In this document: positions 17,585 through 22,275 of the stretch, piece after piece
How the letters are laid out: each line of letters opens with the position of its first letter
Numbering within the stretch: position 1 is the stretch's first letter
Assembly: GCF_000365025.1 (NCBI RefSeq)
Contig: NZ_KB823012.1
Span: forward strand, 186,001 to 250,000
Source: Robiginitomaculum antarcticum DSM 21748
Lineage (GTDB): Bacteria; Pseudomonadota; Alphaproteobacteria; Caulobacterales; Maricaulaceae
Length of the DNA stretch: 64,000 bases
Direction: 5' to 3'
Translations under genes and position numbers: made by a program
Notes under the pieces: generated by a model
Database searches by the model: none
What the model saw: only the letters and a program-made list of their open reading frames with translations
What the model was told of the DNA's origin: nothing

Positions 17585-18616
17585 CTAATCGCGCTTATCA
17601 ATGTCGATATCGGCTGATCCGCTTTCGCGTTGATCCACTGATCCGGTGACGTGATGAACATAAATATCTGCCGCTCCGGTGGCCCGAAGGTCGGCATCCT
17701 TAGCCGTGCCGCCATACTCAATTGTCGAAGACCCAGAGGATGAAATATAGAGCATGTCTGTGTCTCCGTCATCGACTTCAATATCGCCTGATCCGCTGGA
17801 TTCCAGACGGGTCGGTCCGGAAATAGAGTCAATTTCAATATCTCCGGAGCCTCGCATAGAGGCCTCGGCGCCGCCGCTGACATTGCCGACAGACACATCA
17901 CCTGAGCCGCGCAGCGACAAATTGAGCTTTCCGGTCACGTCTTCTAATTCGATATCACCGCTGCCGCGAAGGCTAATATCGGCATTGGCTACATTGCCTG
18001 TGACGATATCGCCGGAGCCGGATAAATCCGCCCGTAGATCGCGGGCATTTTTAATACTGACATCGCCGCTACCACGAAGGTTTAGATCCGCGTCGTGGAC
18101 ATTTCCGGCCATAATATCGCCGGAGCCGGATAACTCGACACGCAGATCGCCGTCCAGATCACCCATATTAATTTTGCCGCAGGCCTGAACCTCGACATTA
18201 GCTCCGCCCAAATCCCCTGTCTCGATAAAGGGGATGGAGTTGCGGACAACCAGGATGGTGTTTGATGGTGCGCTGATTGTCAGCTTGGGATAATCTTCAA
18301 TATCCTCATAGCCGCCAATAGTGCCGGACTTTTTCTTGCTCCAGCTCCAATTACCGTAATAGCCTTTACATTTATCGCCATCAGGCTTGCGGATGCCGCC
18401 ATCAATCACGAGGTTTTCGCCATCATTATGCTGCGTCATATCTTTTTTATTCGTGACAGAGGCCACGGATAAGGGGGCCGTATTGTCGGTGATGAGCGTC
18501 ACTGTGCCGACGAAGTTTTCGATGACAAGCTCGGGGCCGTCTTCTGCTTGCGCGCTCATGGCGAATGCAGAGGCTAATAGCGGCAATGTCGCGGCGGTAA
18601 TCAGAAATTTAGTCAT
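17585..18616 (-). CDS. Secreted GIN/DUF2807 beta-solenoid protein
   Basis: A Sec signal peptide (cleavage likely after AQA, residue 24) is followed by about 140 residues typical of the DUF2807 head GIN domain and then, from residue 164, ten tandem units of 18-20 residues. Seven begin with GSGDI or GSGDV and three with the variants GSSTI, GAADI and GSADI. This is the pattern of a right-handed parallel beta-helix. It is probably periplasmic or surface-exposed. GIN/Toastrack-type domains are known from memory to be encoded beside PspC proteins, which fits its position as the last gene of the psp run on this strand. An AGAGAGAAAA leader precedes the ATG. Confidence 0.8.
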   Translation of the reverse strand: MTKFLITAATLPLLASAFAMSAQAEDGPELVIENFVGTVTLITDNTAPLSVASVTNKKDMTQHNDGENLVIDGGIRKPDGDKCKGYYGNWSWSKKKSGTIGGYEDIEDYPKLTISAPSNTILVVRNSIPFIETGDLGGANVEVQACGKINMGDLDGDLRVELSGSGDIMAGNVHDADLNLRGSGDVSIKNARDLRADLSGSGDIVTGNVANADISLRGSGDIELEDVTGKLNLSLRGSGDVSVGNVSGGAEASMRGSGDIEIDSISGPTRLESSGSGDIEVDDGDTDMLYISSSGSSTIEYGGTAKDADLRATGAADIYVHHVTGSVDQRESGSADIDIDKRD

Positions 18617-19014: not shown

Positions 19015-19512
19015 CTAGTTTTCCAGATCACGGAACTGGCGGCGAAGCTGCCATTCCGATGAGGTGATGGATTTTTCCAGATCCGCCAGACGGGTTTCGA
19101 CGCTACGAAACTTGCTTCTGACATCTTTGAAAGTGGCCGTTGATTTAACCGGTTGCGTAATATTTAGATCTGCGCGCTCTGCCCGGCGGGCCTTGCGGGT
19201 TTCGTATTTTTTGCGGCGGTATGGTGCGCGATTATCGCTGGGAACAAATATCCACAATCCAAAATAAATTGCAAAAACAAGCGGGCCGAGCAAAAAGAAG
19301 AAAGCCAGCACAAAGAGGAGGCGGACAATTACTGGGTCAATGCCGGAGTAATCTCCGATGCCTGCGCATACTCCGCCCCAGACGCCGTCGATTTTATTAC
19401 GGGTTAGGCGCTTGGGAACATCGTCGACATATTCAACGTCTTCGTGCTCTCCGGTGCCCCAATTCGTATCGTTCATGGCGCGGTGAAAGCGGTTTTTATA
19501 TCGTTTTGTCAT
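19015..19512 (-). CDS. pspC: PspC-domain membrane protein
   Basis: The PspC domain occupies about residues 30-90: KRLTRNKIDGVWGGVCAGIGDYSGIDPVIVRLLFVL followed by a second hydrophobic helix ending LWIFVPSDNR. The rest is a basic linker and a C-terminal coiled coil, longer than in Escherichia coli PspC. In the known system PspB and PspC sense inner-membrane stress and recruit PspA. I choose the ATG at 19512 because GGAGAGAGAGAA precedes it; an in-frame start ten codons upstream has no such signal. It overlaps pspB by 17 bases. Confidence 0.88.
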   Translation of the reverse strand: MTKRYKNRFHRAMNDTNWGTGEHEDVEYVDDVPKRLTRNKIDGVWGGVCAGIGDYSGIDPVIVRLLFVLAFFFLLGPLVFAIYFGLWIFVPSDNRAPYRRKKYETRKARRAERADLNITQPVKSTATFKDVRSKFRSVETRLADLEKSITSSEWQLRRQFRDLEN

Positions 19513-19744
19513 TTCTCTCTCTCCAGTTTGGAACTTCGTCATCCAAAATGCGCTCTAGAACCTGAACGCGTTGGTCGAAAATATCGGCCAGTTTTGACAT
19601 GCGTTCCAATTCAGCGATTTGGTCGCCACTCATATGATCCATCATGCGTTCTTTATGGGAGAAGTAGCTTTTTAACATTGCGCTACCCACGCCCATCACG
19701 ATCGCGATAATCGGTATCATGAATACTAGGATTTCAGGTCTCAT
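19496..19744 (-). CDS. pspB: Phage shock protein B
   Basis: This 82-residue protein has one N-terminal membrane helix (residues 4-24, ILVFMIPIIAIVMGVGSAML) and a cytoplasmic helical tail rich in charged residues (IAELERMSKLADIFDQRVQVLERIL), the PspB design. It would act with PspC in sensing envelope stress. It lies between pspA (159 bases upstream) and pspC (overlapping by 17 bases). A GAGAGAGA leader precedes the ATG. Confidence 0.88.
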   Translation of the reverse strand: MRPEILVFMIPIIAIVMGVGSAMLKSYFSHKERMMDHMSGDQIAELERMSKLADIFDQRVQVLERILDDEVPNWRERNDKTI

Positions 19745-19903: not shown

Positions 19904-20596
19904 TTATTTAGTCGCCGCTTTTTTCGCTTTGGGTTCAGATTTGGTCATCCGCGCCTTGAGTTGTGACAGTTCGTCCTCGACGGCTTCATTAGATTCAATC
20001 TCGGCAAACTGGCTTTCCAGACTCTGACCTTTACCAAGGTCAAAGCTCTCAACCTGGGCTTCCAGATCATCGACCTTGCGCTCAACACGCTCGTAGCGGG
20101 CCAAAGCGTCGTCAACTTTGCTGTCAGTCAGCTGTGTGCGTACACGGATACGGTTCTGGGCCGTTGTGCCGCGCATCATAAGCGATTTGTGCTTGGCTTT
20201 AGCTTCATTAAGCTTGGCTTGAAGCTTTTGTAGGTCGGAATCGGCTTTCTCGACATTTTCGTCCAGAATTTGGATCTCGCGGCGGACAACTTCCGCCATT
20301 TGCTCAGCTTGCTGCTTGGCGCCAATTGCGCCCCGGGCCAGATCTTCGCGCTCTTTAGAGATAGCGAGTTCGGCTTTTGACGCCCATTCATCTGAGCGGG
20401 CCTCATAGCTTTCCGCTTTGCGCTGTAATTCTTTACGCTCAGCAATAGAGCGGGCGGCTTCAGTCCGCACTTCGACAAGAGTGTCTTCCATTTCCTGAAT
20501 AATCAGGCGTGCGATTTTTTCGGGATTTTCGGCTTTTTCAATCATAGAATTCAGATTTGAATTTATGATGTCGCCCATGCGTGAAAATATTCCCAT
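19904..20596 (-). CDS. pspA: Phage shock protein A (IM30 family)
   Basis: PspA is a peripheral inner-membrane protein of the ESCRT-III-like family that coats damaged membrane and helps hold the proton gradient; in enterobacteria it also inhibits PspF. The 230-residue protein opens with the amphipathic helix MGIFSRMGDIINSNLNSMIEKAENPEK and is helical coiled coil throughout, ending in a Lys/Ala-rich tail (KSEPKAKKAATK). The AAGGAG ribosome site and ATG are clear. It is the third gene from the divergent regulator, after two tiny ORFs. Confidence 0.95.
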   Translation of the reverse strand: MGIFSRMGDIINSNLNSMIEKAENPEKIARLIIQEMEDTLVEVRTEAARSIAERKELQRKAESYEARSDEWASKAELAISKEREDLARGAIGAKQQAEQMAEVVRREIQILDENVEKADSDLQKLQAKLNEAKAKHKSLMMRGTTAQNRIRVRTQLTDSKVDDALARYERVERKVDDLEAQVESFDLGKGQSLESQFAEIESNEAVEDELSQLKARMTKSEPKAKKAATK

Positions 20597-20641
20597 GATA
20601 ATCTCCTTAGATATTAATGCGGTTTAGGGGTGGGGTGGGGG

Positions 20642-20797
20642 TTAGAGGAAAAATCCACCGATCATCAGACCGGCAACGAAGAAGCCCCAGGACTCCGTCG
20701 GACGTGTCGACAGATAACGGGTAAAGCGCCGAAATGTGCTGCTGGCTTCGCTGCGGTGACTGCGGCTTTCAAATTCATTTTCAAAATCAGTGTTCAT
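20642..20797 (-). CDS. 51-residue membrane protein preceding pspA
   Basis: A short ORF encodes an acidic then basic N-terminal half and one hydrophobic C-terminal segment ending in ESWGFFVAGLMIGGFFL. The ATG at 20797 sits seven bases after GAGGAA; an upstream ATG at 20803 in the same frame is too close to it. The gene ends 45 bases before pspA, so it is probably co-transcribed. A one-helix membrane protein in a psp operon recalls PspD or PspG in role, but I see no sequence basis for equating them. Confidence 0.6.
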   Translation of the reverse strand: MNTDFENEFESRSHRSEASSTFRRFTRYLSTRPTESWGFFVAGLMIGGFFL

Positions 20798-20878
20798 GTT
20801 CATTTCCTCGTCGTCTTAAATGGGGGAATTTCGGCCCGTCCCTCAATTTTATGCGGGGACGGGGGTGGCCGGTTTTGA

Positions 20879-21025
20879 CTAGATGCCAAAACCGGCAATG
20901 TGGGATCCGCCAACATAGCTTGATACGGCGGCGATGTGACGGCGGCGGCGTGAATTGCGAACCCGGTGGGACGCTAAAGATGTGCCGATATTTTTCTCGT
21001 CAATCATATGTGTTGAATAAGTCAT
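20879..21025 (-). CDS. 48-residue basic ORF, first in the psp run
   Basis: This ORF of 48 residues (MTYSTHMIDEKNIG... with an Arg-rich centre NSRRRRHIA and a Gly-rich end) begins after a GAGAGAGAGAGA leader like those of pspB and pspC. It is the first ORF downstream of the pspF-psp intergenic region, 81 bases before the 51-residue ORF. It has no recognised family. Its reality rests on the leader and its place, so it remains tentative; it could be a leader peptide. Confidence 0.4.
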   Translation of the reverse strand: MTYSTHMIDEKNIGTSLASHRVRNSRRRRHIAAVSSYVGGSHIAGFGI

Positions 21026-21173
21026 TGCGTTTTCTCTCTCTCTCGTAACCGTCGGGGCGGGATGTCCCTTTCGGTGTGACCCCAGTATGCAATATAAGAG
21101 AGCGGAAAGTCACGATATTCTAAATCATTGATTTATATAGATTAAATAAGATTTTTGCGCATGACCGTAATTT

Positions 21174-21190
21174 GCAATAGTAATTATTGC
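21174..21190. promoter_or_regulatory. Palindrome in the pspF-psp intergenic region
   Basis: GCAATA-GTAAT-TATTGC is a 6-bp-arm inverted repeat 48 bases upstream of the pspF-like gene and about 150 bases upstream of the psp run. It may be the operator for the HTH domain of the regulator. No convincing -24/-12 sigma-54 promoter was found in 21026-21237. Confidence 0.35.
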
Positions 21191-21237
21191 CTATAAATGG
21201 TATTTAAAACTAATAAAAGTAGTTTACAGGACTAATT

Positions 21238-22275
21238 ATGAGCAAATTACAGACTCAACCCATCGGTCAATCGCCAGCCTTTTTGGCCACGCTAGACCGG
21301 ATATCGCATTGCGCGGCGCTGGATCACACGCTGTTAGTGGTTGGGGAACGCGGTACGGGCAAATCCATGACAGCGGGACGGCTTCATTTCCTGTCGCCCC
21401 GATGGGAACAAAGTTTCAATGCGGTCAGTTGCGCCGCTTATGATGACGAACAGCTCGAAGCTCATATTTTTGGAGAGGATATAAGTGCGGGTCTGATTGA
21501 GCGCGGTGAGGGCGGGACATTATTTCTGGACTCTATAGAGAGTATGAGCCCTCGTGTGCAGGAAAAGCTCCTGCGCCTCGTTGAAGACGGTGAGTATGAG
21601 CGTCTGCGCGGGGATGATGTCTACAGCGCTAATATTCGCATTATCGCGACCAGCGGTATTGACCTGCCCGCCGCGGCCGGAGCCAAGGCCTTCCGGCAGG
21701 ACTTGCTGGATATCCTGTCTACCGACGTGATTACTCTGCCGCCGCTTCGACGCCGCATCTCTGATATCGAGGCCTTGGCCAATTACTTTGCGCGGGAGCG
21801 CGTTAAGGCGCTCAAGGCAGAAAGCTTCCCGGGATTTACGCCCGAGGTGATCGCATTTTTGGAAGGGCAGGACTGGCCCGGTAATGTACGGCAGCTTCGA
21901 AGTGTGGCGATACGCGCAGTCAATAATGCTTTTCTGGATGATAACAGTTTTGATGGCCCGATTGGCGATGTCCGCATGGATCCCTTTGAGGGGCCGTGGC
22001 GACTTGCCGTTCTCCACGATGCACCTGTGCAGACGATTCTGCCACCGGATCAACTTCATGCACCGCAACCGGGCGCGCCGCAGTCAGCCCCACCGCAAAA
22101 TATCGCGCCAAAATCTGAGGGTGATTTCTATGAGCGGGTTAATGCGTTTGAAAAAACGCTGATCGTGCAGGCGATGGACACACAGGGGCAACATCAAAAG
22201 AAAGCGGCCGCATTCCTTGGTCTGACCTATCACGCCTTTCGCGGGCAGTTGCGAAAGCACGGACTACGCAAATAA
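21238..22275 (+). CDS. PspF-like AAA+ regulator with degenerate sigma-54 activation domain
   Basis: By position and layout this is PspF: an AAA+ domain without receiver, then a Pro-rich linker and a Fis-type HTH (about residues 300-345). Walker A is intact (GERGTGKS, 36-43). However, where PspF has FGHEAGAFTGA, this protein has only FGEDISAGLIE (78-88), so the GAFTGA loop that contacts sigma-54 is deleted. Walker B reads LFLDS (Ser99 replacing the usual Glu), and the conserved FRxDLLxRL segment reads FRQDLLDIL (Ile159 for Arg). It probably binds DNA but is unlikely to hydrolyse ATP or remodel sigma-54 RNA polymerase. It diverges from the psp genes. Confidence 0.85.
   Translation: MSKLQTQPIGQSPAFLATLDRISHCAALDHTLLVVGERGTGKSMTAGRLHFLSPRWEQSFNAVSCAAYDDEQLEAHIFGEDISAGLIERGEGGTLFLDSIESMSPRVQEKLLRLVEDGEYERLRGDDVYSANIRIIATSGIDLPAAAGAKAFRQDLLDILSTDVITLPPLRRRISDIEALANYFARERVKALKAESFPGFTPEVIAFLEGQDWPGNVRQLRSVAIRAVNNAFLDDNSFDGPIGDVRMDPFEGPWRLAVLHDAPVQTILPPDQLHAPQPGAPQSAPPQNIAPKSEGDFYERVNAFEKTLIVQAMDTQGQHQKKAAAFLGLTYHAFRGQLRKHGLRK

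Follow-up and report, generated by a model that had tools for sequence, protein, structure and literature searches.

Absence of the GAFTGA loop from PspF and an altered psp promoter point to sigma-54-independent phage-shock control in Robiginitomaculum antarcticum and its relatives

The DNA stretch analysed in this study (64,000 nucleotides; hereafter the window) originates from the genome of Robiginitomaculum antarcticum DSM 21748 (2.77 Mb, 5 contigs), a member of a genus which, like Litorimonas, is placed in the Robiginitomaculaceae in the NCBI taxonomy. It contains a phage-shock (psp) locus with the following genes and, within pspF, the following sequence elements:

17585..18616, minus strand: DUF2807 protein, downstream of psp and possibly part of the same operon
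19015..19542, minus strand: pspC, with a Pfam PspC domain, below the TIGR02978 cut-off
19496..19744, minus strand: pspB, identified by profile matches
19904..20596, minus strand: pspA, TIGR02977 score of 280.1 bits, above the cut-off of 242.95
20642..20803, minus strand: small ORF2, 53 aa, with one hydrophobic C-terminal segment
20879..21025, minus strand: small ORF1, 48 aa, Arg-rich, the first ORF after the promoter
21238..22275, plus strand: loop-less pspF, 345 aa, identified by profile matches, alignment and structural model
21343..21366, plus strand: Walker A GERGTGKS (residues 36-43), kept
21400..21405, plus strand: Arg55-Trp56, both kept in the alignment to E. coli PspF
21469..21501, plus strand: remnant of the sigma-54 contact loop, FGEDISAGLIE (residues 78-88), GAFTGA absent
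21517..21534, plus strand: Walker B TLFLDS (residues 94-99), catalytic Glu replaced by Ser99
21712..21714, plus strand: Ile159 at the position of arginine finger R168, within FRQDLLDIL

The pspF product is composed of an AAA+ domain (approximately residues 9-230) and a Fis-type helix-turn-helix (HTH; approximately residues 297-340). Its best-scoring profiles are PspF models, although all scores lie below the equivalog cut-offs (e.g. 304.9 bits for TIGR02974, whose cut-off of 443.55 is not reached). The AlphaFold2 model (mean pLDDT 89.4) retains the AAA+ fold, and its ten best PDB matches are all PspF. Thus the protein has the features expected of a PspF orthologue, i.e. the AAA+ and Fis HTH domains, divergence from pspA and a best match to PspF models, while it lacks those of a sigma-54 activator: the GAFTGA loop, the Walker B Asp-Glu pair and a -24/-12 target promoter.

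In the alignment to the E. coli PspF chains of the PDB, residue numbering is the same up to the contact loop, where a 9-residue gap falls exactly on GAFTGA. An earlier note on this DNA had described this deletion, an intact Walker A next to an LFLDS Walker B, and a gene diverging from a psp operon, and in all these points the sequence agrees with it: pspA, pspB and pspC are all encoded on the minus strand and pspF on the plus strand. The same note had counted the arginine finger as lost, which is correct for the R168 position (Ile159) but not for the other arginine-finger residue, R162, kept as Arg153. Moreover, this change does not belong to the pattern common to loop-less PspF proteins, since R168 is retained in 33 and R162 in 27 of the 47 that we compared (see below), and it concerns some species only. 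Ser64, which replaces the "glutamate switch" residue Asn64, is found in the window protein alone (1/47). According to passages of PMC4132715, N64 of E. coli PspF is the partner of E108 in this switch, the two residues couple the nucleotide to the GAFTGA loop, and an N64S variant escapes control by PspA.

We searched 137 genomes of the family and detected PspF (E <= 1e-45) in 72 of them, at 73 places. The comparison set of 82 loci consists of 72 of these places (a fragment in G139 was omitted) and 10 loci from three other families of the order. GAFTGA is present in 35 of the 82 proteins (in one case with an unread base, GAXTGA) and absent from 47. The Walker B Glu has exactly the same distribution: both features are missing in 47 loci and both are present in 35, with zero mixed cases. 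All 35 loop-bearing proteins carry Asp-Glu in Walker B, whereas the Glu position of the loop-less ones is occupied by Asn (36), Ser (3), His (3), Ala (3), Gly (1) or Asp (1). Alignment with related PspF proteins, proposed in the earlier note as a check, revealed that two members of the same genus (G002 and G003; 70 and 69% identity) have the deletion and the DS motif in common with the window protein, which argues against a sequencing error.

Other parts of the protein are retained. Walker A Lys42 and the Arg55-Trp56 pair occur in 47/47 loop-less proteins and sensor R227 in 46/47; Trp56, the residue on which inhibition of E. coli PspF by PspA depends (described in parts of PMC6003685 and PMC4132715), is also found in all 35 loop-bearing ones. 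Compared with the loop-bearing set, the loop-less proteins resemble one another less in the loop and Walker B regions (45 and 52% vs 78 and 84%) and more in the HTH (66% vs 46%), the latter being a soft contrast, as the loop-bearing set spans more families. In two genus groups (g1 and g12) canonical and rewired forms exist side by side within one genus, each with the matching promoter. One assembly (G144) carries two pspF-pspA loci (L050 and L051), both loop-less and with the new promoter type, perhaps as a result of duplication or of a mixed bin.

A wider scan, with one genome per species, covered the best 80 of 578 PspF relatives. Among these 80, only L095 and L096 lack the loop, and both were already in the 82-locus set; the remaining forms are GAFTGA (64), GAYTGA or GSFTGA (13) and GSFTDA (1), and the Walker B motif of two proteins (L099 and L165) was not readable by the pattern. 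Outside the family, loop and Glu are not invariably coupled: a Rhodospirillales PspF (L128), not included in the set, keeps GAFTGA and has lost the Walker B Glu (FLDML).

The region between pspF and pspA contains the following predicted sites, all read on the psp strand:

21220..21234, minus strand: operator-like site 1, TAGTCCTGTAAACTA (TRGT-N7-RCYA)
21198..21212, minus strand: operator-like site 2, TAGTTTTAAATACCA
21178..21192, minus strand: possible degenerate third site, 6/8 positions, found by eye and below the cut-off
21121..21133, minus strand: IHF-like site, matching the IHF consensus WATCAANNNNTTR at 9/9 positions
21108..21113, minus strand: -35-like GTGACT, situated where loop-bearing relatives have their -24/-12 promoter
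21084..21089, minus strand: -10-like CATACT, spacer 18, the pair matching 8/12

The fetched stretch includes pspA upstream in 81 of the 82 loci (the exception is L074). The psp strand of the whole pspF-pspA gap was scored with a simple set of weights representing the -24/-12 consensus (maximum 15.6); a cut-off of 13.1, between the two groups, was chosen after the scores had been seen. All 34 loop-bearing loci with pspA in reach score 13.2-15.6, indicating a sigma-54 site before psp, and all 47 loop-less loci score 13.0 or less (the highest being L064, whose match lies inside ORF1, and L030). The best value in the window is 12.0, in agreement with the earlier note, which had seen no clear -24/-12 site in this intergenic region. 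The -24 element of the 34 loop-bearing loci is TGGCAC in 33 and TGGCAT in one (L092); family f2 (six loci) differs in the -12 part by TTGA in place of TTGC. A genome-wide search of genome G000 with the -24/-12 pattern was uninformative as a positive control, yielding 17 matches with at most one mismatch, while the pattern in reverse gave 14.

When the two mixed genera were aligned, the -24/-12 site turned out to have been replaced in place and not deleted: the sequence upstream, including the IHF-like TCAATNANTTA, can still be recognised as the same, and the small ORFs and pspA come downstream. By eye, most loop-less gaps and five loop-bearing ones contain an ORF1-like frame, and most of the 81 gaps, including those of other families of the order, an ORF2-like frame. 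ORF1 and ORF2, which are located between the psp promoter and pspA, possibly encode unrecognised Psp proteins; neither gave a convincing match in Pfam or NCBIfam.

At the place of the -24/-12 site, 39 of the 47 loop-less loci and 2 of the 34 loop-bearing ones match TTGACA/TATAAT at 8/12 positions or more, as do 1.6% of background positions in the loop-less gaps; this place, unlike the consensus, was chosen with the pattern already in view. The -35-like element of the loop-less loci begins about 18 nt after the start of the TCAA of the IHF-like site, and the -10-like element follows 16-18 nt further on. The two relatives of the window carry TTGAAA-18-CATAAT, a second loop-less lineage GTGACA-16-CATTCT or close variants, and the large loop-less clade mostly TCGACA or TCGACT-17-CATATT or CATCTT. 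In 37 of the 47 loci the best-scoring -10-like sequence is CATNNT and not TATAAT. The predicted transcription start lies within about 2 nt of the old -24/-12 start, as counted by hand in L012, L017, L018 and L021. A standard scan of positions 20560-21260 under a 9-of-12 rule returned no sigma-70 promoter (shuffles: 1.1). An inverted repeat noted by eye around the new promoter (TCGAC/GTCG or GTGAC/GTCAC) was dropped, as it is inconsistent across lineages.

Within the 100 nt adjoining the pspF start, putative operators were counted as matches to TRGT-N7-RCYA at 7/8 positions or more, the motif having been read off the same alignments. The 47 loop-less loci contain 108 such sites vs 10.7 in shuffles (at least one in all 47, at least two in 42), and the 34 loop-bearing loci 40 vs 5.6, with one or more sites in 21 of them; in a different 100-nt stretch of the gap, the density is 0.08 sites per locus (78 loci). 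TRGT-N7-RCYA is a candidate binding site of PspF. The best match to WATCAANNNNTTR within a 65-nt stretch reaches 9, 8 or 7 of 9 positions in 19, 23 and 5 of the 47 loop-less loci, and 9, 8, 7 or 6 positions in 3, 19, 10 and 2 of the 34 loop-bearing ones, as raw counts. A stricter IHF pattern missed the site in 6 of the 34 loop-bearing loci.

The loop-less genes appear to be under purifying selection. Open frames without stops were found at all 47 places, and dN/dS amounts to 0.03-0.13 in seven loop-less pairs, ratios that are rough because dS is at least 0.97 in all seven (an eighth pair is saturated); five loop-bearing pairs also give 0.03-0.13, with one further pair saturated. Sequencing error and pseudogene formation are ruled out by the deletions shared across assemblies together with these low ratios. 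At the E-value limits used, 71 of the 137 family genomes have both pspF and pspA, one has pspF alone (G139) and two have pspA alone (G007 and G160). The latter two pspA genes (G007:C32:4746-5396 and G160:C26:135162-135815) may lie at contig ends or represent further rewiring.

Loss of rpoN is ruled out as the cause of these changes: the gene is present in the window's genome and was found in 34 of the 36 genomes tested, the two misses being assemblies that are 70 and 90% complete. Among four such activator-like proteins read in the window's genome, whose FlbD-, NtrC- and NtrX-like names were given from layout and neighbours, only the FlbD-like one, at the left edge of the window (L001), has a usable loop and appears as a canonical activator (GSFTGA, DE); five further, weaker Pfam places for this kind of protein were also detected. 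The NtrC-like (L094, C1:520456-524000) and NtrX-like (L002, C1:524113-527604) proteins lack GAFTGA and keep the Walker B Asp-Glu. Since Caulobacter NtrC and NtrX are also described as loop-less (in part of PMC10274813), these losses may be older than those in PspF.

How many times did PspF lose its loop? A marker tree of concatenated RpoB, RpoC and RpoN (27 genomes, 3261 columns) was built, in which G004 is represented by RpoN only and G005 by part of RpoC and RpoN, and from which G010, G021 and G023 were omitted for lack of RpoB and RpoC, so that genera g6 and g17 are missing. Its starred branches force three changes: one in the window's group, which is sister (100/100) to the loop-bearing G004 and G005 of the same genus, one in a group nested in genus g12, and one in a clade formed by g2, g9, g13 and g19. 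Three changes also resulted when a quick PspF tree was built with the loop and Walker B columns excluded, vs two with the full PspF tree including these trait columns, two with RpoN alone (up to three in bootstraps), and two forced by the starred branches of a 38-row PspF tree. On PspF (38 of 82 rows) a single origin of all three loop-less groups is rejected (p-AU 0.014), while a joint origin of the window's group and the large clade is compatible with this protein alone (p-AU 0.256). At least two independent origins are thus indicated by the trees, three being most likely. We read the changes as losses, taking into account that the loop occurs in the other families and that its regain is unlikely, and thus assuming no regain. 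Protein and promoter changed together in all three cases, for which a sign test gives p 0.25, as three events cannot reach significance; the weight of the association therefore lies in the complete separation of the two groups and in the in-place replacement.

The sequences themselves show the losses in the protein, the altered promoter, the parts that were kept, purifying selection and a minimum of two origins. That psp has become independent of sigma-54 in the loop-less loci is well supported by the comparison, in line with the earlier note, which suspected that the protein no longer activates sigma-54 and that the phage-shock circuit is rewired: none of the 47 loop-less loci has the loop, the Walker B Glu or the -24/-12 site, all 34 loop-bearing loci with pspA in reach have the three of them, and the comparison of PspF loci supports such rewiring. 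Because E108 and N64 couple the nucleotide to the loop, joint loss of loop and Glu would be expected once sigma-54 is no longer the partner. The retention of Walker A, Trp56, the HTH, the operator-like sites and the link to pspA suggests that loop-less PspF is still a regulator and probably still answers to PspA; the N64S change of the window protein counts against PspA control in this particular case, given the escape of the E. coli variant (reported in part of PMC4132715).

Our best explanation, which we consider rather probable, is that the window PspF is a genuine orthologue that is no longer a sigma-54 activator but an ATP-binding, PspA-controlled, sigma-70-type regulator, probably an activator. 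Without stress PspF would be held by PspA; freed by membrane stress, it would bind the operator array approximately 100-150 bp upstream of the start. Bending of the DNA at the IHF-like site could then bring it into contact with a sigma-70-type polymerase, whose recruitment, the simplest reading of the new promoter, would activate psp, with ATP bound and little or no hydrolysis, as reported for Rhodobacter NtrC. The promoter itself would have been rebuilt in place from -24/-12 to a weak -35/-10 pair with about the same start point. A broader version, to which we give roughly equal chances of being right or wrong, is that PspF of the Robiginitomaculaceae type three times became an ATP-binding, non-hydrolysing, PspA-gated sigma-70 enhancer-binding activator, the psp promoter each time being converted in place from -24/-12 to -35/-10 (mostly GAC, 16-18 nt, CAT), with operators, IHF-like site and start point unmoved.

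The main uncertainty concerns the sign of the effect of PspF on psp, i.e. activation or repression. The earlier note had offered a repressor or a sigma-70 regulator; the sigma-70-like promoter fits the latter better, though not decisively. As a TyrR-like repressor, loop-less PspF would act on pspF and perhaps on psp, which would be transcribed by sigma-70 polymerase constitutively or under another regulator, with PspA relieving or setting the repression. Kept operators and an IHF-like site taken alone would fit such a repressor too, since E. coli PspF together with IHF also represses the sigma-70 promoter of pspF, the same operators and IHF serving activation of pspA and repression of pspF (as described in parts of PMC3709507). 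TyrR, moreover, is listed as a GAFTGA-defective relative in PMC3162934, and the first operator-like site of the window ends 3 nt from the pspF start codon. We nevertheless regard repression as unlikely, for the sites lie approximately 100-150 bp upstream of the predicted psp start and not over it (hand count). Operators of TyrR-like repressors overlap the promoter that they repress. For a pure autorepressor without another target, the tie to pspA (71 genomes with both genes, 3 with one only) and the presence of Trp56 in 47/47 proteins would be unexpected.

It is less probable still that an alternative member of the sigma-70 family (RpoH or ECF) recognises the new promoter and provides the stress input, with PspF as a mere modulator. 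The CATNNT form of the -10-like element in 37/47 loci would suit such a factor, and the groES promoters of the same genomes include CTTGAC-N17-CCTATCT as well as forms with CATATG-like ends; the -35-like TCGACA and GTGACA, however, are devoid of the CTTG of those promoters, and a spacing of 16-18 is ordinary for sigma-70. The groES promoters did not separate sigma-70 from the heat-shock sigma. They differ by lineage (L264-L282), with CTTGACTC-N17-CCTATCT on the one hand and CTTGCG with CATATG-like ends on the other. Continued dependence of psp on sigma-54, via an unrecognised promoter or another activator acting in trans, would be conceivable in a genome that has rpoN and one canonical activator (L001), but is very improbable given that nothing above 13.0/15.6 was found in any of the 47 loop-less gaps, vs at least 13.2 in 34/34 loop-bearing ones. 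Least credible of all is a decaying remnant without function: several catalytic residues have indeed been lost, and the PspF branches leading to the window's group (0.89) and to the loop-less group of g12 (0.64) are long, but 47 intact frames, low dN/dS in seven of eight loop-less pairs and an HTH more alike than in loop-bearing proteins are hardly compatible with decay.

PspF is widely used as a minimal model for sigma-54 activators, and for many representatives of this family the label "sigma-54-dependent PspF" would be incorrect. Loop-less PspF raises the questions of what role is left to an AAA+ enhancer-binding protein in the absence of hydrolysis, and of whether a sigma-70 regulator can be gated by PspA. 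The presence of canonical and rewired forms in one lineage makes it possible to ask whether promoter or protein changed first, and rewiring of psp in this group of marine bacteria may be viewed as a natural experiment in stress-circuit change. Three origins, if true, would mean that a conserved stress circuit has switched polymerase repeatedly and in parallel.

Enhancer-binding proteins without GAFTGA are already known (NtrC, TyrR). A sigma-54 survey mentions about 110 relatives in which the loop deviates, naming TyrR, DhaR, HupR, VpsR and YplP (passages of PMC3162934). We found no report of a GAFTGA-less PspF in the literature searched, although the supplementary list of that survey might include one; the passages on PspF in two PSP surveys (PMC11237479 and PMC9239133) make no mention of it, PspF not being part of the detailed analysis in the former, as stated there. 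Within the literature searched, a GAFTGA-less PspF that has also lost the catalytic Glu, together with the parallel conversion of its target promoter, thus appears to be new.

Compared with E. coli PspF (PDB 2BJW and others; TIGR02974), the loop-less proteins likewise have no regulatory domain, diverge from pspABC and keep Walker A, Trp56, R227 and the HTH, and upstream operators and IHF are also features of E. coli psp (parts of PMC3709507); they differ in the absence of GAFTGA, of the Walker B Glu and of a -24/-12 site on psp, and in a TIGR02974 score below the cut-off. TyrR, DhaR, HupR and VpsR have, by description (passages of PMC3162934), the same fold with a defective loop, but other signals and targets. 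A further parallel is NtrC of Rhodobacter capsulatus and Caulobacter, a GAFTGA-less protein reported to act at sigma-70 promoters, for which, in Rhodobacter, ATP binding rather than hydrolysis has been reported (passages of PMC10274813). By description, the two systems share deletion of the sigma-54 contact loop, with Walker A kept in loop-less PspF. Those NtrC proteins are phosphorylated response regulators of nitrogen metabolism, whereas in the case of loop-less PspF, which has also lost the Walker B Glu, control by PspA would be expected.
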